Below, piece by piece: positions 964 through 61,722 of a DNA stretch of 64,000 bases. The DNA lies in assembly GCA_016214035.1 (NCBI GenBank), contig JACRPF010000015.1:124001-188000 (forward strand). The letters are read 5' to 3'. Each line of letters opens with the position of its first letter. Positions within the stretch are counted from its first letter, which is position 1. The stretch comes from Spirochaetota bacterium (GTDB taxonomy: Bacteria > Spirochaetota > Brachyspiria > Brachyspirales > JACRPF01). Under the pieces are notes generated by a model. The model had not been told where the DNA came from. It searched no databases and worked only from the letters and a program-made list of their open reading frames with translations. Position numbers and translations under genes: made by a program.

Positions 964-2283
964 ATGAGAATACTCTGCATCATACTGGCGATCGGTAACA
1001 TGTGGGCACAATCGGGTTCCCTGCTTCCGGACGGCGCAATGGAAAGCATCTGGGTGGTGAAAGGTGCGGTTACGCCGGTGGACGTGCCGGGGCAGGCGTT
1101 CGCAAAAGCATTCCACGCATCGGTTGCCCAGAAGCCGGTGAATGCCTGGGATGTTCAGATAGAAGCCCGCATACCGGCTGCATTTACGCCGGGGACTATC
1201 GAGATATCATTCAAACTGCGCGACGCTTCCTCGAACCGTGAAACGTCCGTGTGTTCCGCGGGAATCGTCATCATCACCCGGCCGGGGAACAAATTGCTGG
1301 GATTTAAAACGGTGAATGCCGGACAGGAATGGAAAACCATACGCTATCATTACTCTGTAAGCGCGGACTATGCCTCCAATACCGTGGGCGTTGCCATCAC
1401 CTTCGGCGGCATGGTGCAGGAACTTGAGATCGGCGATATCCGGGTTCGGACGGTCTCTGAAAAAGAGAAAGCGGAGATGCTTGCCGAAGAGCGCATGCTG
1501 CGTGCGGCTGAAGCGGCGCAACGTCCCCGCATCGACGGACTGCCGTCAGTGCCGGCGGGTGAAACGTGGAAGATCGCGTTTCAGGACGAGTTTGACGGAA
1601 CAACTGTTGATGAAACGAAATGGACGATACGCGAAGGAAAACGCCGCGACATGATGCGCAGCCGCAAAGCCGTCTCGCTCGACGGCGACGGCCATCTGGT
1701 AATGAGCATATTCAAAGAGGGCGACAAGTTCTATGACAGCTGGATCGACACCAAGAATAAATGGACGCAGACCTACGGCTTCTGGACGGCGCGCATCAAA
1801 CTGCACCGCTCCGAAGGCCATTGGATAGCGTTCTGGCTCATGCCGCAAAGCGGAAATACCGTCGGCAGTCCCGGGCGCGAGATCGACATCATGGAATGCA
1901 ATCGTCTCAATGACGAGGTCAATCACGCCATTCACTGGAACGGATACGGCAAGGACCATAAATCAGAAGGACACCGGGAGATGACCCCCGGATTGACCGA
2001 GGGATGGCACACGTATTCGCTGCTATGGACACCGGAGGATTTTGTTTTTTACGTCGATGATGCCGAGGTGTACCGTACCAGTGCCGCCGGAGGCTGTCAC
2101 GTCCCCGAATACATCAAAGTCACCGACGAAGCCGAGGCAAAACCCTCGAGCTGGGCCGGCGATGTGAACACCGCTAAACTGCCCGACTCATGGATGGTGG
2201 ATTATGTGCGTGTCTATCAGCGCGTCGATGCGAAAACGGGAAAGCCGGTGTGGACACCGCCGCCTCAAGCGCCGAAGGAATGA
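964..2283 (+). CDS. Secreted GH16 family beta-glucanase-like enzyme
   Basis: A 439-aa exported glycoside hydrolase that probably cleaves beta-1,3/1,4-glucans or galactans outside the cytoplasm. Residues 1-16 form a signal peptide. Residues about 20-175 look like a carbohydrate-binding-type beta-sandwich. A GH16 catalytic domain runs from about 200 to 425. The GH16 active-site motif is clear as GREIDIMEC, with E306 as nucleophile, D308, and E311 as acid/base (ExDxxE form). The ATG at 964 has a GGGAGG-type ribosome site about 10 bp upstream. It is flanked by the LacI-type regulator and another large glycosidase. Exact substrate (laminarin, agar, carrageenan, lichenan) cannot be decided from the motif. 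Confidence 0.88.
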   Translation: MRILCIILAIGNMWAQSGSLLPDGAMESIWVVKGAVTPVDVPGQAFAKAFHASVAQKPVNAWDVQIEARIPAAFTPGTIEISFKLRDASSNRETSVCSAGIVIITRPGNKLLGFKTVNAGQEWKTIRYHYSVSADYASNTVGVAITFGGMVQELEIGDIRVRTVSEKEKAEMLAEERMLRAAEAAQRPRIDGLPSVPAGETWKIAFQDEFDGTTVDETKWTIREGKRRDMMRSRKAVSLDGDGHLVMSIFKEGDKFYDSWIDTKNKWTQTYGFWTARIKLHRSEGHWIAFWLMPQSGNTVGSPGREIDIMECNRLNDEVNHAIHWNGYGKDHKSEGHREMTPGLTEGWHTYSLLWTPEDFVFYVDDAEVYRTSAAGGCHVPEYIKVTDEAEAKPSSWAGDVNTAKLPDSWMVDYVRVYQRVDAKTGKPVWTPPPQAPKE

Positions 2284-2318
2284 CCGATATGATATACGAA
2301 AAAATGCGGAGGATGAAT

Positions 2319-5300
2319 ATGAAACACATCAGCATACAGGTAATATCACTCTTACTCCTGACGGCAGCAATCTCCGCACAGGCGCCGCAGGAAGCGCGCC
2401 TTGAGATACGCGCGAACACGGGCAAAGTGCCGCTGAACGATGCGTCGTCGAAAACCGGTTCGGTGTCGCATCCGTCATGGCTCAAACCGGGCGAGAAGGA
2501 AGCCTCGCTTACCGCCACGTACAAACTGGTGCCGAATAAATGGACGGCGATTGACATAACGTTCACCCCCGCCGGAAACGGCGCCGCGATACTGCAGCTC
2601 ATGGGGCCATATTATAAAAAACAGGGCGAGACCGCGCTCACGCCGGTATACATCCGATGGGATGGCATTACCGCGGAAGGCAGCGTGATAAATAATGGAG
2701 ATTTTGAAGATGAGGACAGCGCGAAACCCGACACACCGAAAGGCTGGTGGAAAGGCGGTGCCGATGCGTACATCGAGACGGCACCCGGGATGGTCAAAAA
2801 TGGGAAACGGAGTATTGCCGCGTGGCATAACGCCTCGTTTCAGACGACACTGCCGCTTACGGAAAACACGGTCACCGTACGCGCCTGGGTGTTTTTTGAA
2901 TCGAAAGAGGAAAAGCCGTCCGTCGGTACCGGCGATACGTTCATCCTTACGCGGAAGAACTTGTTCCCCGTTGATACGAGTTTTGAGACCGGCGCTGGAT
3001 GTTTTCCCGGCGCGGACCATGACACACGCACCGGTGTTCACGGCAGATCGTCCGTTATGCTTACGCCGCCGCTCATGCGGAGCTCCAAATTTTTTGATGT
3101 ATTGTATCCCGATGAAAAATATACGATGACGTTTTCCGCAAAATCAGAAACGCCCACGAAAGCCAGAGTTGTGCTCTGGAATCTTGAATACGGGTGGATA
3201 TCGTCAGCCGATCTCGACCTTTCAGCCGATTGGAAACAATGTTCGGTAAAAGTCCCGCCGCAGAAAACGCGCAGCGGCATGTACATCGAGTTCCGCGATT
3301 TTTCATCGAAGATATGGCTCGATGCGCTGCAGCTTGATAAAGGCGACGCAAAGCCGTACAAACCGGAACCGCTTTCGATGAGCGTAGACCCCGTCGGGCC
3401 GGGAAATGTTGTCCGTACCGGCAACGATGCGCTGGCGATGACGGTGCGCATGTACAATGACAGCATCAATACCGCGAATGTCATCGTCCGTTTCCGCACG
3501 GAGGCTTTCGACGGATCCATTGCAGCACAGGGCGAGACAGCAGTTTCGCTCAGCAAGGGCGGACTCACTGAACCGGTCATCAAAGCACTTCCGGTGAAAA
3601 ACCCCGGCTACTACGTCACGACCATAACAGCGTTTGACGGCGCAAAAGAATTGAAACGCTTTACCGTGCCGTTCTGTGTTATCGCATCACCCCCGCCGCT
3701 TGAGCAGGATTCATTCTTCGGCATACACCCCGGAGCGATGCCGAAACAATGGCTCTCGAACATCGGCATGGTGTGGCAGAGGAATTTTCCGTCGTGGAAA
3801 TGGCAGTACCGTTCATCCGACGCCCCGATCGACCTGTCGTTCATCGACAAGGATACGGCAAGCGGACTTCTGCCGTACTACACGTTCAAGATAGCCGAGA
3901 TGCCGGACTGGATTAAAAAAAAGGGACTGGATTACAAACAGGAATACGTGTCCTATATGAAAAAGGTCGTGGAAGGATACAAGGACAAAGTAAACATCTG
4001 GGAACTGGAGAATGAACCCGACCTTGAGTTCAAAAAGATGCTCGGTAAAGATGCCGTTACCGCGGCGCGCGAATATGCGGAGGTGCTTGCCGCCGCCGCG
4101 AAGGCGATACGCGAGATAGATCCATCGGCAAAAATATCGGGTGCAAGCGTATCCGGCGGCGACCCCGATGATCATTTCATCTTCATGAAAGAGGTGTTCC
4201 GTCTCGCCGGCAATTCCATGGATATCGTCTCCCCGCATATCTATTCAAGCCCCCGCACTATCGGCCCCGAGGCGATGGGCGCAAAATCACCCGAGGACAA
4301 TCGCTTCCGTGAAAAACTCATCGAGGTGAAACAGATTATCGATCAGTACGGCGGGAAACAGGATGTGTGGATGGGCGAAGTGGGCTGGGAACTCGATGTG
4401 CGCACGGCGTATAACGACAGCTATGCGCGTACGTATTCGGAGTATCTGGTGCGCGCACACCTGGCGTCGTTGTCACTGCCGTTCATGAAAAAGTTCTTCT
4501 GGTTCACCGCCGAGGGATGCCATGAGAAAAAGAATTATTCTTACGGCATGTGGCGCGACCCCTACGCGCCGCTTCCCGCGGTGGCCGCGTATGCGAACAT
4601 GACGCGCCTTTTCTACAAAGCGGTGCCGCGCGAACCGATACTCGACACCGAGATAAAGATATTTCCGTTCGTCCGCGAAATTACAAAGCCGCTTGCCGCA
4701 GTCTGGAAATACAAGGGAGAAAGCGGCGATATGTACCTCGATGTTAAACCGTCAGCTGTACTCGTCACGGATATGGTCGGAGCCGCGTACACACCAGAGG
4801 TCCGCAACGGCAAACTGCGCATCCCGCTCACGACAAGCCCGCTGTATATCACCTCAGACATATTGTCGTACGACGCATTTGCCGCCGTACTTCGCGGTGC
4901 CGAGATACGCGTGAAACCGGCGGTGGTATTCCGCAACCGGTTCGCGAACAGCTACGAGTTCACGCTGAAAAACAATACCGCAGCCGAACTGTCGCTGGCT
5001 GCATCAGTGTCAGGTGTCAGCGTTGAAAACCCGTCACGGAATATAGCGGTGCCGGCGAACGGGAACAGCGTGCTCTCGTTCACCGGTGCGTTCACCGCAG
5101 CCGGCACGAACCGGATTACGCTCACACTCGAACAGCCGCCGGATGTGACCAAAAAGACATACACGCTTTCGTATCTGTCATGTTTGCGAAAAGCCGTTGC
5201 CATCAGCAGCGCTGCGGACCGTTCTGAGTTCGACGGACTTCCGGCAATAATCATCACTACGAAAGAAAATATACTGCCGCCGGATCCCACTGTCGGCTGG

Positions 5301-8689: not shown

Positions 8690-8909
8690 ACGGAGGGAGG
8701 CCGAGTGCCGGAATGCCACGGCTCGGTCACGCAAGTCCTCGCAGGACGCGTATGCCGCGGCGTCGGGGGCGGTAAACCTCATCGTCGGCAGCATCGGAAG
8801 CGGTGTGCAGCTCTCCCGTGAATTGCGCTCGCTTCGGAAAGCGATGACGCGCGGAACGGGTGCCGAAAAGGTCCCCGCAGCCGTGAAAGCCGAACCGGCG
8901 AAAGCGTAA
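8690..8909 (+). pseudogene. 5'-truncated remnant of the small helical protein found intact at 56.7-57.1 kb
   Basis: The plus-strand frame ending at TAA 8907-8909 encodes about 70 residues that align with the C-terminal half of the 129-aa protein at 56698-57087. Shared blocks include AECR, YAAASG, the exact ten residues SRELRSLRKA, and an Ala/Lys-rich tail. The first 60 or so codons of the intact copy have no counterpart. The only in-frame upstream ATG lies at the 5' end of gspE on the other strand, with no credible ribosome site. The frame is still open, so a short peptide might be made, but it reads as a decayed copy. Similarity continues at DNA level through the stop codon into the terminator. 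Confidence 0.75.
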
Positions 8910-8911
8910 CG

Positions 8912-8965
8912 TGAACACCGGCTGAAAGGCCCGGACAGGAAGACGTTCCTGTCCGGGCTTTTTCC
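8912..8965 (+). terminator. Rho-independent terminator after the gene remnant, near-identical to the one at 56.65 kb
   Basis: A long stem (CCCGGACAGGAA paired with TTCCTGTCCGGG) around a 3-4 nt loop is followed by a run of T. The sequence from GAACACCGGCTGAAAGG into the stem is the same, with at most a base or two different, in the other module copy. The two loci are therefore homologous in DNA. Confidence 0.88.
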
Positions 8966-9035
8966 ATTTGTTGGATCGCGGGTACACTATCACCATCAAT
9001 GACGGCATTCTCGATGAGTTGTTTTCTCGGATACA

Positions 9036-9393
9036 CCGGTGTATATGGTTTACAAAGCATAGTATACAGTGTATGCGCCGGTGTTGCCAAGACATTATCA
9101 GACATATGGATACTACCGGTCAGAACACGAGAGCCGAAGACCGGTACACGTGCTGTACGGTCAGGCATATAACGTACCGAAAACGGTGTGTCAGGAAAAA
9201 AATATCGCGTACAGGCGCTATGCGCGTGTTCACGTTCTGTGCGAACCGGCGTATGGACAATATACACCGGCTTTTGTTGAGCGTATACCGGTGCATGTTC
9301 AACAAAAGCCGGTGTACGTTCATCATATTCCAGTGTACAGGCCTTGTACGCGTTTATCGGTAACTCGAGCCTTGTGTACGTTGAGCGTATGCT
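9036..9393 (+). repeat. Array A: about 17 degenerate tandem 21-bp units
   Basis: Units begin with a CCGGTGTAC-like core, often preceded by ACA to give the palindrome ACACCGGTGT. Clear starts fall at 9036, 9078, 9141, 9246, 9267, 9288, 9309 and 9330, all separated by exact multiples of 21 bp. Even highly diverged units keep the register with no net insertion or deletion until about 9350. The array ends in CTGGAATATTATTGTTG (9392-9408), which is also the end of the other array. Short open frames across it are by-products of a stop-free 21-bp period. Confidence 0.85.
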
Positions 9394-9415
9394 GGAATAT
9401 TATTGTTGTTTTTGG
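9392..9415 (+). repeat. Terminal sequence of array A, shared with array B
   Basis: CTGGAATATTATTGTTG followed by a T-rich tail matches the corresponding end of array B (56241-56266, minus strand), where the same sequence forms one arm of a 29-bp terminal inverted repeat. The opposite arm is not recognisable at locus A. Confidence 0.7.
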
Positions 9416-9494
9416 ACTTCATTCCGATTAATTGTGATATGTAGCATTCTGCTTATAACGTCATTGAATAAATAATAACCGCTGCAGATGCGGC

Positions 9495-9523
9495 TTGACT
9501 CGGTGGATTTGCAGAACTATACT
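9495..9523 (+). promoter_or_regulatory. Sigma70-type promoter of the 9572 gene
   Basis: TTGACT (9495-9500) and TATACT (9518-9523) with a 17-bp spacer, about 50 bp before the start codon of the following gene. Confidence 0.7.
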
Positions 9524-9571
9524 ATTGCGTATGTTAAATCGTGAAATGAAAAGTCCTATCCCGTGCTGAAT

Positions 9572-55583: not shown

Positions 55584-56105
55584 CTACAACCGCACCCGTA
55601 CAAATACATACCCCACCACATCCATATCCCTCAACGGCACTATCCCGTTGACAATCACCCCGCAGCCGAACCACGAATACTCAGCCATCAGCCCCATCCC
55701 CGCCGACGTCAGCACACCTTCCGCCGCCACCCGGATTCGTCCGGATACCACCGGCGCCAGATACAACGCCGGGACTTCATTCAGCTTGTACCCGAGCGCA
55801 TACTCATTCGACCGTATGGCAAACCGTATCTCCGCCGGAGTCACCGACAGAAGCCGAGGCGGCGTGCTGAGAAAGTCCGTATAGTCGGCAAGTATGGCGT
55901 TTCTTTCCCCCCACCCGTCACCGGTATTCGTCGCCCGCTTCCATGCCGGGCTTTCCTGTTTCACGATCTTGCCCTTCGGCGCTACGACAAGCTTCGATGC
56001 GGGAAATGGCAGTCTGCCGAGGATATATCCTCCCGCGAAGACGCAGACAAGAATCATGAGTGCCGCTGATGCGGGCAGTGTCAGGTTTATTACTATCTTT
56101 TTCAT
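55584..56105 (-). CDS. Small membrane-anchored protein of unknown function
   Basis: A 173-aa protein. CGGAGGAAT gives a strong ribosome site 3-4 bp before the ATG. One hydrophobic segment (about 8-30, ending AGGYILG) could be a signal anchor. The remainder is beta-rich and probably periplasmic (EIRFAIRSNEYALGYKLNEVPALYLAPVVSG). No family recognised. It lies next to the 21-bp-repeat module and carries, 40 bp upstream, the same 33-bp sequence that precedes the 129-aa gene. It may therefore share a promoter type with that gene. Confidence 0.7.
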   Translation of the reverse strand: MKKIVINLTLPASAALMILVCVFAGGYILGRLPFPASKLVVAPKGKIVKQESPAWKRATNTGDGWGERNAILADYTDFLSTPPRLLSVTPAEIRFAIRSNEYALGYKLNEVPALYLAPVVSGRIRVAAEGVLTSAGMGLMAEYSWFGCGVIVNGIVPLRDMDVVGYVFVRVRL

Positions 56106-56144: not shown

Positions 56145-56177
56145 CTTACGACTATATATACGATAACGTGTTGCACG
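56145..56177 (-). promoter_or_regulatory. 33-bp element, copy 1 (shared promoter or operator candidate)
   Basis: This sequence matches 57159-57191 at 30 of 33 positions. Read on the minus strand it holds TGCAAC, then 18 bp containing TATATATA, then TCGTAAG, which resembles an ECF-type -35/-10 layout. It lies 40 bp before the 56105 gene start. Confidence 0.5.
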
Positions 56178-56240
56178 TGACGGTTAGCTGCCGTTCATGC
56201 ATTCCCGATCCACCGGCATTTCTGTCAGGGCCGAAGGGAT

Positions 56241-56555
56241 CAAAAAACAACAATAATATTCCAGTGTACGTGCTGCGTAATCCGGCTCGCAGGCGGCTAA
56301 CACATCTCACGCACTGCTCACACCGCTGTACGCGGTGCGTAAGCCGTCTCGTGTACCAGGAACACCGGTGTGCGCGATGCATGAGCCGGTATATGCGGAA
56401 GTTACACCGGCTTACGTACCGCATATACCGCTTCGCGCAGGGCGTACCGCTGTTCGCGAACCTGCATCCCGGTATACGTTGTGCGTACACCGGTGTACAC
56501 CGGCCACAGGCTGTCTCGCCCGGCATATACACTGGAATATTTTTGTTGTTTTTTG
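56241..56555 (-). repeat. Array B: 13 degenerate 21-bp units enclosed by 29-bp inverted repeats
   Basis: Units with a CCGG.GTAC-like core start at 56261, 56282, 56323, 56344, 56365, 56386, 56407, 56428, 56447, 56469 and 56490, nearly all 21 bp apart with two small slips. The array is closed by inverted repeats at 56241-56269 and 56527-56555 that match in all but about two positions (CAAAAAACAACA ... ATATTCCAGTGTA). The minus-strand right end is the same sequence that ends array A. Open frames across it have no ribosome site. Confidence 0.85.
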
Positions 56556-56641
56556 AAGGCATCGAACCGCTTATCGGCGGTGATGTGCTGTGCCGTGTGA
56601 TATACACGCACCGGCAGGGTAATATTGCAGGCCGGATAATA

Positions 56642-56695
56642 CAAAAAGGCCCGGGCAGGAACGTCTTCCTGTCCGGGCCTTTCAGCCGGTGTTCA
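56642..56695 (-). terminator. Rho-independent terminator of the 129-aa gene
   Basis: A G+C-rich stem (CCCGGACAGGAA with TTCCTGCCCGGG) followed on the minus strand by a T run, immediately after the stop codon at 56698. The segment matches the terminator at 8912-8965 almost base for base. Confidence 0.88.
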
Positions 56696-56697
56696 TG

Positions 56698-57087
56698 CTA
56701 CGCGGTCTTTTTTTCGGCTTTTGCCGCAACCGCATCGGCAGTACCGGTCCCCGTTGCATGCGACATCGCTTTCCGGAGCGACCGCAGTTCGCGTGAGAAC
56801 GGTTCCTTCGCACCGACGGTCCCGACGATCATGTCCACGACACCCGATGCCGCAGCATACGCCGCATACGTGCTCGCACGCGATTTTGCCGTTGCCGTCC
56901 GGCACTCCGCAGCGATCCTGATCTGTGCATCCTCGTCGGCGAACGATGCATCCACCAGGTCCTTGAGCATACCCACCTTTATCGTGGGGTCCACTCCGGC
57001 GGTTTTCACCGATTCCAGATTGGTCGTGAGGACATTGAGAATCCGCAGCGCGAATTCCCGTTTCGAAACTTCGTTGAGTGATTTCAT
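56698..57087 (-). CDS. Small helical protein of the 21-bp-repeat module
   Basis: A 129-aa protein with no recognised family. An ideal AGGAGGTGAT site precedes the ATG by 3-5 bp. The sequence looks all-helical: three to four amphipathic helices (residues about 5-28, 35-52, 55-95, 98-112), then a low-complexity Ala/Lys tail. There is no signal peptide or Cys. It is followed by its own terminator and by array B. A 5'-truncated relative occupies the same position beside array A (8690-8909). Conservation is highest in YAAASG and SRELRSLRKA. It could bind the array DNA, be a structural or phasin-like helical protein, or be a selfish-element cargo. None of these is shown. Confidence 0.75.
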   Translation of the reverse strand: MKSLNEVSKREFALRILNVLTTNLESVKTAGVDPTIKVGMLKDLVDASFADEDAQIRIAAECRTATAKSRASTYAAYAAASGVVDMIVGTVGAKEPFSRELRSLRKAMSHATGTGTADAVAAKAEKKTA

Positions 57088-57140
57088 AAATCACCTCCTG
57101 TTTAATTTTGTAAGATTTCGTAAAAAATCATCACGCGCGC

Positions 57141-57169
57141 TTGACTTTCTTTCACGAGCTTACGATTAT
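57141..57169 (+). promoter_or_regulatory. Possible promoter of the ECF sigma gene
   Basis: TTGACT (57141-57146), 17-bp spacer, GATTAT (57164-57169), about 190 bp before the sigma gene start. It overlaps the second 33-bp element. Confidence 0.4.
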
Positions 57170-57191
57170 ATATACGAAAAGGTGTTGCACG
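57159..57191 (-). promoter_or_regulatory. 33-bp element, copy 2 (shared promoter or operator candidate)
   Basis: Near-identical to 56145-56177 and lying 72 bp before the 129-aa gene on the same strand. A related core (CGTATATATAATC ... CGTA) also lies at 63956-63974, upstream of the last AraC gene. The two 33-bp copies also flank the whole intact module as direct repeats 1014 bp apart. Confidence 0.5.
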
Positions 57192-57358: not shown

Positions 57359-58252
57359 ATGAATACTACAAACACACCTACGGCACCGCTTGATGACCTC
57401 ACCCTCATCAACGGCATCCTTCACAACAACATGAAGTGCTATCGCCTCTTCCAGAGCCGCTATTTCACCTACATCAAACATCTTTTCTCCCGCTGGATCA
57501 ACGACGCATCCGACGCCGAAGAACTTTCCTGCGACGTTATGATGAAAGTCATCACCACCATCGACCGCTTCGACGCGGCGAAAGGCAATATGCGCCTGTG
57601 GATTTACGTCATCGCCATCAATACCAGGAACGACTATCTCCGCAAAATCGCCGCCCGTGAGAAAGAAGCGAAAGTTGTATCGCTTGATGAACCCGTCACC
57701 ACCGGCAGCGACATGCTCCGCATCGATTTTCTTGTGGACACGAGTATGGACATATCCGAATCGTCATCATCTTCTGCGTATACGACCGATCCGGCACTTG
57801 CGGCAGCACAGGAAGTCATTAAAGGACTCTCCGCCGACACACGCTATATACTTCAGATGCATTCAGACGGCTATACATCTTCCGAAATAGCTGAAACCGT
57901 GCACAAACCGGAAGGGACGATCCGGAGCATCTGCTCACGCATCAAAAAAGCCATCCGTGCGGCGTATGATAAGGTCATGAAGCGTACTATTCCGTCTGCA
58001 GATGCCGCAGTTACCACGAATACCGAATTGGCGGATACATGTTACGTACACACCGCGCCGGTAAGAAAAATGATGCGGTTGGTCAGCCTGCAGAACTTCG
58101 AGCCGATTTTGGTTGTGATGCGGATCAGATCCGCAGTCACCATCATCCGCACACTGCTGTTATATTTCGGAGCGGTGTATAAGCGCGCATATCACCACCG
58201 CTGCATTATCCGCATTGCAGGCAAGCAAAATAAGGGGGGCTCTTTTCTCTAG
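57359..58252 (+). CDS. ECF-type RNA polymerase sigma factor with C-terminal extension
   Basis: A 297-aa sigma factor. Region 2 lies at about 38-100 (YIKHLFSRWINDASDAEELSCDVMMKVI; the LWIYVIAINTRNDYLRK core-binding/-10 helix) and region 4 at about 150-205 (SADTRYILQMHSDGYTSSEIAETVHKPEGTIRS). Between them is a Ser-rich linker. After region 4 there are about 80 extra residues with a hydrophobic stretch (ILVVMRIRSAVTIIRTLLLYFGAV) that could be a membrane or regulatory tail. ATG 57359 is chosen; the same frame stays open upstream through the array but is non-coding there. It is divergent from the 129-aa gene, and the 33-bp elements in front of that gene and the 56105 gene are candidate targets. 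Confidence 0.82.
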   Translation: MNTTNTPTAPLDDLTLINGILHNNMKCYRLFQSRYFTYIKHLFSRWINDASDAEELSCDVMMKVITTIDRFDAAKGNMRLWIYVIAINTRNDYLRKIAAREKEAKVVSLDEPVTTGSDMLRIDFLVDTSMDISESSSSSAYTTDPALAAAQEVIKGLSADTRYILQMHSDGYTSSEIAETVHKPEGTIRSICSRIKKAIRAAYDKVMKRTIPSADAAVTTNTELADTCYVHTAPVRKMMRLVSLQNFEPILVVMRIRSAVTIIRTLLLYFGAVYKRAYHHRCIIRIAGKQNKGGSFL

Positions 58253-59439: not shown

Positions 59440-61722
59440 TCAGAACTGTATGCCGGCGAAGATGCCGGGGTAGTGGATAGTGCGGTCGTCGCTCCACGGG
59501 AACGCGGCGAGCCTGTTCTCCGGCGCAACACCGGCGCTCGAGAAACGGCGGCAGTAGTTGTAGCTCACACCGGCGAAGATGCCGATGTTGTCGTTGAAGC
59601 GCCATCCCGCGGTCAGGCGGAGCTGTGCGAGAATCGCTCCGCCGTATATCATCCGCTCGGTCATCGCGTTCGTCGATGATGACGGTGTGAGCAGGTTGTC
59701 GTCATGCATCTCCCAGCCGGCCTTGAAAAGATCGATCATGCCCCGCACGGAATGCATGCTCCCCGCGGTGAGGTCGAGGTCGAAGTACACGGGGCCTACC
59801 GGGAGTTCACCGCCGAAGCCGCCGCGCCAGCACACCGTGTCGAGGTCCGTCCTCGTACCGATGATGCCTATCGTGTAAAAGTTTTTTGAGCCGCTGCGGA
59901 GACCAGCGGAGATGAAGCCCGTATCCTCGTACATGATGAACGGATCGAAGATGCCGTTCTTGATGATGTTCACGAGCCCGATGGGAAGCGTCACCTCATC
60001 GGCGACATTGACGATGCCCATCTGTACACCGTCCACTTTGCCGTTCGCCACGTTGAATATACCGGCCATCTGCATGCCGGTGACATTCGACGCGATATTG
60101 AAGATACCGGCCATCTGAAGGCCCTTGACCGACGCGGCGATATCGAATATGCCCGCCATCTGCACGCCCTTGACGTCGCCGTTCGCGATATTGAACACGC
60201 CCGCGAAGTCAACGCCGTACGAATCGGCGCCCGCGATGTTGAAGACACCCGCCCAGTTCGCGCCGTGCATATCCTTCTTCGACTGGTTGAACACGCCAGC
60301 CCAGTTGAGACCGTATAACTCGCCGCCTATATTAAACACACCGGCCCAATTCAATCCGAGCGCGGGTCCGTCGACAACATTGCCGACACCCGCCCAGACA
60401 ACCCCGGTGGAACGCTCATAGAATATGTTCATCACCGATGACCATGCGACACCGTTAAGCACATCGGCGTCAACACCCACGAGCCCGAGCGCCAGATTAT
60501 TGAGCGTCTTATATGGTGACGGTGACGACATCCACCGCGAAGGGATGAGCGAGAGATTGATCGGCTGTATCACATATTGCGAATTGCTCGTCGTCTGCAG
60601 TCCGTTGAGCGGAATGGTGACCACAAGCGCATTGCTGGTTGCAACGATACCGGCCGTAGTCTCAGTGCCGCCGCCGCGTTTCACCGTGGCCTCGGTGCTC
60701 GCTATCTTCATCTGCGACAGCGCGAGCGTCATCCTGCCGTTGGCGCTCACCGTCACCGGCGCCTCGCGCACTTCACGTTCACGGGTAACCGTCACGCGGT
60801 AGGAACCCGGTTCAAGGCCGAGCTCGAATTCCTGGCCCTGTGATTTGGAAAGCTCCACCACAAGACGTCCGTTTGCGTCGCGCACCGCCACGCGTCCGTA
60901 GAGCGATTCGTCAAGCGTGAGCGTCGCCGTGGTGTTGCGTATGTCGGTCATGACCACGTCGCCCGCGCCGGATATCCGCATGGCGTACGCCGGATGCTGC
61001 GCGCCGCCTTCGGTGCGTTCCGTGTGCGCAAGCGTTTCATTGTAGGCGAACTGATACGCCTCGTTGAGCGTCACTTTTTTATCCTGCGTCACGTCAGCCG
61101 CGCCGCGGAGTCCCGAGACAAGCGCATGCGTGAAGAACGATCCTTCTATGGCGTCCGATTCCTGCGACGCTTCATCAACCGAACTCGAGGTGAGGAACGC
61201 ATAGCCTTTCGCGCTCGCGTCCGTATCGAACACGAAGGCCGGACGTTTTGCGCCGCCTTTAAGTCGTGTGAGCGCACCGGACGAGCATGAGTCGAGTATG
61301 ACGATGTGCATATCAGCGGAAAGTTTTTCGATGGCTTCCTTGAGCTCGGCGTAACGATATGTTTCGCCGTTAAACTTGAGTCCTTCCTCGTCGGAATGTC
61401 CCGAATAATAGAAGATCACTTCCGTCCGGCTTTTCGCGCTTTTCGCCTGCACCACCTTCTGGCGCACGCTTTCAACCGCCGCGGTGAGTTTACCGCGCGT
61501 CGTGTTGGTGACGATGACCGCATCAACCGCCTCCATGCCGCCCACTTCGGTGAACACCTTCGACACCGTGCGCGCGTCGCGCTCCGCGTATCTGAGCAAC
61601 ACACGGTCGCGTCCGCCGTTGTTGGCCGCCGCGAAAATGCCGATGCGCTTGAAGTTCGCCGCGGGCAACAGAAACGATGCTGCAGCCGCTAAAGCTGCAA
61701 TTGTGATGATGATGCGTTTCAT
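59440..61722 (-). CDS. Exported caspase-family protein fused to surface-type repeats and a barrel-like C-terminus
   Basis: A 760-aa exported protein. AAGGAG lies 7 bp before the ATG and a signal peptide covers about 1-22. Residues 25-245 are a caspase/C14 peptidase domain with H109 in YYSGHSDEEG and C146 in LDSCSSGAL as the catalytic dyad. A PEGA-like beta domain covers about 263-335 (LDESLYGRVAVRDANG, EPGSYRVTVTRE). From about 425 to 580 there are roughly ten 15-16-aa repeats with consensus G-x-x-x-A-G-[IV]-F-N-[IV]-A. The final 180 residues look like amphipathic outer-membrane strands and end in Phe. It is the third gene of a four-gene operon led by an ECF sigma factor. Confidence 0.88.
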   Translation of the reverse strand: MKRIIITIAALAAAASFLLPAANFKRIGIFAAANNGGRDRVLLRYAERDARTVSKVFTEVGGMEAVDAVIVTNTTRGKLTAAVESVRQKVVQAKSAKSRTEVIFYYSGHSDEEGLKFNGETYRYAELKEAIEKLSADMHIVILDSCSSGALTRLKGGAKRPAFVFDTDASAKGYAFLTSSSVDEASQESDAIEGSFFTHALVSGLRGAADVTQDKKVTLNEAYQFAYNETLAHTERTEGGAQHPAYAMRISGAGDVVMTDIRNTTATLTLDESLYGRVAVRDANGRLVVELSKSQGQEFELGLEPGSYRVTVTREREVREAPVTVSANGRMTLALSQMKIASTEATVKRGGGTETTAGIVATSNALVVTIPLNGLQTTSNSQYVIQPINLSLIPSRWMSSPSPYKTLNNLALGLVGVDADVLNGVAWSSVMNIFYERSTGVVWAGVGNVVDGPALGLNWAGVFNIGGELYGLNWAGVFNQSKKDMHGANWAGVFNIAGADSYGVDFAGVFNIANGDVKGVQMAGIFDIAASVKGLQMAGIFNIASNVTGMQMAGIFNVANGKVDGVQMGIVNVADEVTLPIGLVNIIKNGIFDPFIMYEDTGFISAGLRSGSKNFYTIGIIGTRTDLDTVCWRGGFGGELPVGPVYFDLDLTAGSMHSVRGMIDLFKAGWEMHDDNLLTPSSSTNAMTERMIYGGAILAQLRLTAGWRFNDNIGIFAGVSYNYCRRFSSAGVAPENRLAAFPWSDDRTIHYPGIFAGIQF

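Follow-up and report, generated by a model that had tools for sequence, protein, structure and literature searches.

Families of helical proteins beside 21-bp tandem arrays in Spirochaetota look like undescribed protein-plus-DNA-array modules

In the partition systems ParR-parC, omega-parS of pSM19035, and ParB-parS, a small protein gene lies beside tandem short DNA sites. Iteron origins combine a Rep protein with iterons of 17-22 bp, that is, tandem sites about two helical turns long, adjacent to the gene of their binder. In type III toxin-antitoxin systems (ToxIN), a small protein gene, a terminator, and a tandem repeat array are adjacent to each other, while CsrA/CsrB is known for the many repeated recognition units that are available to one protein. 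The DNA studied here (hereafter the window, 64,000 nucleotides in full) is located on contig C12 of a Spirochaetota genome of 5.21 Mb (G000). A preliminary description of the window, made from its letters, had reported two copies of one unit, consisting of a gene that encodes a small helical protein, followed by a terminator, a degenerate 21-bp repeat array, and a conserved end sequence. Both copies were confirmed with respect to gene, terminator, and 21-bp array. Their features, given as positions in the window, are as follows.

56698..57087 (-): intact F1 gene encoding a 129-aa helical protein (ORF list and AlphaFold model)
57092..57099 (-): ribosome-binding site AGGAGGTG ahead of the F1 ATG (sequence)
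57159..57189 (-): ECF-type promoter-like element TGCAACAC...TCGTAAG before the F1 gene (genome pattern matches)
57359..58252 (+): ECF sigma-factor gene, 297 aa, divergent to F1 (Sigma70_r2 E=6e-10, Sigma70_r4_2 E=6e-6)
56638..56682 (-): intrinsic terminator in the interval between F1 gene and array, hairpin 56645-56682 (inverted repeat I6 and T-run)
56240..56556 (-): degenerate 21-bp array of ~15 units (autocorrelation peaks at 21 and 42)
56240-56273 and 56523-56556: 34-nt inverted repeats, 91%, bounding the 57-kb array (repeat analysis)
56145..56175 (-): second ECF-type promoter-like element with one mismatch, repeat D1, preceding a 173-aa ORF at 55584-56105 (-)
8691..8909 (+): 3' remnant of an F1 gene, codons ~57-129 (sequence match to F1)
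8925..8962 (+): terminator of the 8.7-kb copy, near-identical to the 57-kb one (inverted repeat I2)
~9030..9391 (+): degenerate 21-bp array of ~18 units, of the 57-kb array type (periodicity)
9392..9408 (+): array end CTGGAATATTATTGTTG of the 8.7-kb copy (sequence search)
9494..9526 (+): sigma70-like promoter of a family enriched near arrays (family search, 1.23 Mb)

As described previously, the 57-kb gene is intact and has a good ribosome site, whereas its 8.7-kb counterpart lacks the first half. The DNA from stop codon to terminator is near-identical in the two copies, in agreement with the reported match of their terminators. At the 57-kb array, the end sequence is present at both ends and is carried by the 34-nt inverted repeats. 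Elsewhere in the window, a caspase-domain protein of 760 aa (Peptidase_C14, E=3e-11) is encoded at 59440-61722 (-), and a 45-bp tandem repeat (60053-60174) is found inside this gene.

A search with the 129-aa protein, followed by a profile search, revealed about 19 F1 relatives in G000 (about 18 matches in addition to the intact 57-kb gene), which fall into two subfamilies. An array with a 21-bp period adjoined the F1 gene in 16 of the 17 loci with readable flanks, which bears out the claim that the array is part of the unit and not a chance neighbour. Most of these arrays were located downstream of the gene, after a terminator; at L008, the array directly followed the stop codon, and at four loci (L003, L012, L036, and L038) it lay upstream of the gene's promoter. 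The terminator, which had been proposed as a part of the module, occurs often, though not at every locus. Near-perfect arrays were found at L003 and L006 (lag-21 identity of 0.97 and 0.89, respectively). With the exception of recent duplicates, the unit sequence of the F1 arrays was specific to each locus.

A gene-independent repeat scan, which took in 1.23 of the 5.21 Mb of G000, returned 21 bp as the commonest tandem period. Specifically, of the 24 strongest periodic stretches, 19 had this period, and two of these 19 were coding repeats in a chemotaxis receptor. Some of the 21-bp arrays had no F1 gene nearby and are referred to as orphan arrays. The end of contig C7 (L005) and the start of contig C12 carry the same array type, so that these contigs probably join there; arrays break the assembly. 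Additionally, a long imperfect hairpin of ~150 bp is dispersed in several places close to helical genes (L004, ~2060-2200; L016, ~2570-2720; G000:C1:363110-363280). Its copies share a core near CTGTTTGAGCA, and it is possibly a miniature element.

Among 393 genomes sampled across the phylum, four contained F1. Relatives accompanied by an array were found in the distant genome G142 (near-perfect at L051, short at L048), but two copies in G174 had no array.

The arrays without an F1 gene led to two further families of helical proteins beside arrays, F2 (267 aa) and F3 (155 aa). F2 genes were located beside 21-bp arrays at all four loci (L119, L121, L122, and L120 in G174). F3 was first seen at L123 and, in G001, at L124, and its profile matched 17 of the 393 genomes. 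For this discovery set, the period was left free and only loci with enough flank were considered (n=25); an array with a period of 21 bp or a multiple thereof lay just downstream in 22 of them, and the units were mostly unrelated from locus to locus. As a validation set, the F3 profile was applied to the family of G310, where 46 of 200 genomes were positive. At 37 of 53 additional F3 loci, a lag of 21 was the best of 25 candidates downstream of the stop codon. Clear period-21 arrays were present ≤200 bp from the stop codon at 29 of the 53, and only two loci showed a period of 20 or 22. In G310 itself, five of the six F3 genes had a period-21 array and the sixth had one of period 22; no period-21 array was present in 400 kb of G310 control DNA, sampled as twenty 20-kb pieces at even spacing. 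The locus counts take in closely related copies and are thus not all independent. Homologues without a visible array occur as well (L004, L049, L050, L138, L145, L153, along with some loci of the validation set). Overall, the link between 21-bp arrays and helical genes extends over more than 20 genera, and at least three families that are undetectably related by sequence pair with them, which supersedes the notion of one protein family per module. Directly after the F3 array of L150, a gene at 2218-3384 reads, by eye, like a Dcm-type cytosine-5 DNA methyltransferase.

The end sequence proved to be much more restricted than the array. CTGGAATATT(A/T)TTGTTG is confined to one array type, represented by seven arrays in G000, and G001 contained a single exact match. 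Three of the seven arrays have no gene nearby and two are accompanied by 5'-truncated gene remnants. The end is therefore not a general part of the module, as had been assumed, and CTGGAATATT was rejected as a general module end. The same arrays bear on the earlier suggestion of a non-autonomous mobile element, which would have the CTGGAATATT sequences as its ends. To a limited extent this suggestion holds for the one array type, which is dispersed with truncated remnants or without a gene and has inverted ends at 57 kb. The terminal inverted repeats were seen as a pair at the 57-kb array and not at the other six places of its type. The end is absent from the other array types, homology runs past the end in several copies, and the neighbours of F3 loci look, by eye, like ordinary chromosomal genes. 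We consider a mobile element very improbable.

Arrays comprise ~10-20 tandem 21-bp units, with a period that is held and a unit sequence that is free. A length of 21 bp corresponds to two turns of the B-DNA helix, and the units stand in helical phase (multiples of ~10.5 bp), as expected for an array of operator-like sites. Coding arrays with 7-residue repeats were rejected, as no three-base periodicity was detected in the arrays (column entropy, Fisher p=0.91). A dyad-symmetric unit consensus (p<0.05, column-permuted nulls) was found in 15 of 19 F3 discovery arrays. In the validation set, 18 of 29 arrays reached p<0.05, with a combined Fisher value of 6e-25 that overstates independence because several arrays of one type were counted separately. 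Dyad symmetry is a tendency, with about two thirds of the arrays at p<0.05, and the extents of the arrays used for testing dyads and pairs were set once the tandem-repeat output had been viewed.

Symmetric units could act at the level of DNA or of RNA. In the latter case, the array would be transcribed, and the repeat RNA would be the partner of the protein, similar to a CsrB-like sponge or a ToxI-like antitoxin. Single unit consensuses can be drawn as hairpins, and in one Treponema-like family the arrays begin 9-35 bp after the stop codon without a terminator and may be transcribed. G:T pairs also outnumbered A:C pairs in the raw validation tally (178 vs. 94), but the excess was not significant at the level of arrays (37 vs. 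23, permutation 0.11). Pair covariation was absent from all three tallies, with observed/expected Watson-Crick pairs of 887/892, 1137/1135, and 1542/1524. Dyads without compensatory changes favour symmetric double-stranded DNA sites over RNA hairpins, and dyad-symmetric units lacking pair covariation are the pattern of a tandem, operator-like array of DNA sites. Furthermore, a terminator often precedes the array (roughly half of the F3 loci, like those of the window, have a terminator-like hairpin there), four F1 arrays are located upstream of the promoter of their gene, and the window contained no Rfam match. An RNA partner thus seems rather unlikely to us. The sequence evidence favours units that are symmetric DNA sites, not RNA hairpins. 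Of the earlier proposals, the best match to the data is that the protein has a DNA or RNA partner of its own; the DNA version is preferred, and the RNA version is less favoured owing to the lack of covariation.

Functionless satellite DNA, kept by slippage or recombination only, would account for arrays that are locally homogenised, contain higher-order 42/63-bp repeats, and vary in length. It would not account for a period fixed at 21 while the sequence is free, for the dyad symmetry and the conservation of motifs between genera, or for the position beside particular gene families with none in the 400 kb of control DNA. This explanation appears quite improbable.

The ECF-type promoter-like element of the window had 12 matches in G000, compared to none for a reversed control. 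Most of them were placed before F1 genes, and another precedes a truncated F1 gene where contig C1 ends. At several F1 loci, among them that of the window, an ECF sigma gene is encoded divergently. The F1-type ECF promoter was also found before an unrelated gene at G000:C1:519313 (L236, MAKADLSIVLTDLRRKLGNVVFSKWKQTNYIRP...), which looks like the uncharacterised DUF6266 kind. The sigma70-like promoter family had 13 matches in 1.23 Mb, seven of them within about 500 bp of an array (G000:C1:41039, C1:133319, C12:598, C12:133494, C19:11667, C2:36028, and C3:86621). These array-side promoters point away from the arrays and have the conserved tail AAAGTCTTATCC. Their placement would suit an array that regulates the next promoter, or that is bound by another host nucleoid or regulatory protein, with the helical gene as a passenger. 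The common 21-bp design of three unrelated families and the existence of orphan arrays are in line with such a third factor. However, a single host factor would not explain why the units differ at almost all loci within a genome, or why the association with helical genes spans more than 20 genera, and we regard this alternative as unlikely.

The profiles of F1, F2, and F3 did not match one another (hhalign), which leaves either a fold shared beyond detection or a third factor common to all. The AlphaFold model of F1 is all-helical (pLDDT 86). The models of F1 and F3 are confident and have one layout, namely short helices, a helix of 55-57 residues, a short helix, and a low-confidence tail. A Foldseek search of both models against the PDB yielded no solved structure at E≤0.001, and no known DNA-binding fold was found in this way. 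Similarly, searches of Pfam, PHROGs, NCBIfam, PADLOC, and PDB sequences gave no credible match, and tblastn with F3 gave none in phages and plasmids. Scans with peptide patterns found nothing in other genome contigs (F1 and F3) or viral contigs (F3), which, given the few patterns, is weak evidence for absence. One homologue on a Thiodictyon plasmid, without an array, was obtained with the consensus of an F3-like family as the query. F3 resembles a family that is common outside the phylum. The literature searched, in which subscription journals were little covered, contained no published description of the module. The label of apparently undescribed can be retained for what is a real recurring unit, described in none of the databases searched.

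Within F3, protein identity and array similarity were correlated (Mantel r=0.43, p=0.0005). Some array motifs were kept across genomes with 52-67% identical 4-fold sites (L147/L152 and L150/L157). For L147/L152, where 52% of these sites were identical, the array match was 0.51 between the loci vs. 0.54-0.57 within them. The proteins of L157 and L158, on the other hand, are 84% identical, yet their arrays are unrelated. Judged from these comparisons, array type appears to change in steps and not by drift, since motifs are kept at depth while closely similar proteins have unrelated arrays. Specificity would accordingly rest on few residues. The proteins of L150 and L157 differed from those of L151 and L158, to which they are ~80% identical and which have the other of two array types, consistently at few positions in this small sample (AERQGM/AERHGL, SDTEM/DDTEM, FYKS/FYHS, and FPGGKRK/FPQ..GRR). 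These positions are a lead toward candidate specificity residues.

The helical proteins and their 21-bp arrays look like an undescribed family of protein-plus-DNA-array modules. We give an even chance to cooperative binding of the array by the protein encoded beside it. Weighing against this explanation are the array design common to three unrelated families, the unrelated arrays of closely similar proteins, the homologues without a visible array, the arrays of the Treponema-like family that may be transcribed, and the negative search for a DNA-binding fold. If it holds, each unit would consist of two inverted half-sites, spaced by about 10.5 bp and lying on one face of the DNA. The adjacent protein probably oligomerises through its 55-57-residue helix, and its basic C-terminal part may contact the DNA, so that cooperative binding of its own array would make a local nucleoprotein patch. 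The F1 protein would be produced under the ECF sigma factor, which is often divergently encoded. The patch might serve in autoregulation, in insulating the promoter next to it, or as a DNA anchor or point of segregation.

A broader and more doubtful proposal is that of widespread 'addressed' modules, in which non-homologous helical proteins each have a private 21-bp dyad array, with discretely switching specificity. If true, a single chromosome would carry many DNA patches, each bound by protein independently of the others. Should the proteins read their own arrays, they would make up a natural collection of protein-DNA pairs that are independent of one another and include many switches of specificity. 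Such pairs would be useful for working out the recognition code and as tools, and helical families matching no database model tried would be assigned a role. Irrespective of the mechanism, a two-turn array has been kept beside non-homologous families across more than 20 genera, a pattern that is unexplained and testable.

Compared to known systems, the modules share with CRISPR a repeat array beside an associated gene, but their repeats are purely tandem, without spacers, and no Cas-like gene was seen beside the window copies. In contrast to CsrA/CsrB, the units differ at every locus and show no sign of RNA pairing; furthermore, the models of F1 and F3 are all-helical, whereas CsrA is a beta protein. 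With respect to ToxIN, the order is reversed, with the gene first, and the units, mostly located downstream, measure 21 instead of ~36 nt. The arrays lack the covariation of a structured RNA, and no match to the ToxN/CptN/TenpN fold was found (Pfam, NCBIfam, and PADLOC) for proteins with all-helical models. Regarding iterons, no winged-helix Rep-like domain was detected by Pfam and the PDB fold search was without a significant match; the present arrays have more units, are usually located downstream, and occur in many copies per chromosome. Plasmid partition systems, finally, differ in that no ParA, ParM, or TubZ NTPase was seen here (Pfam for the window neighbours; ten F3 loci by eye) and no similarity in sequence or fold was found, and the present loci are chromosomal and numerous, each with a repeat of its own.
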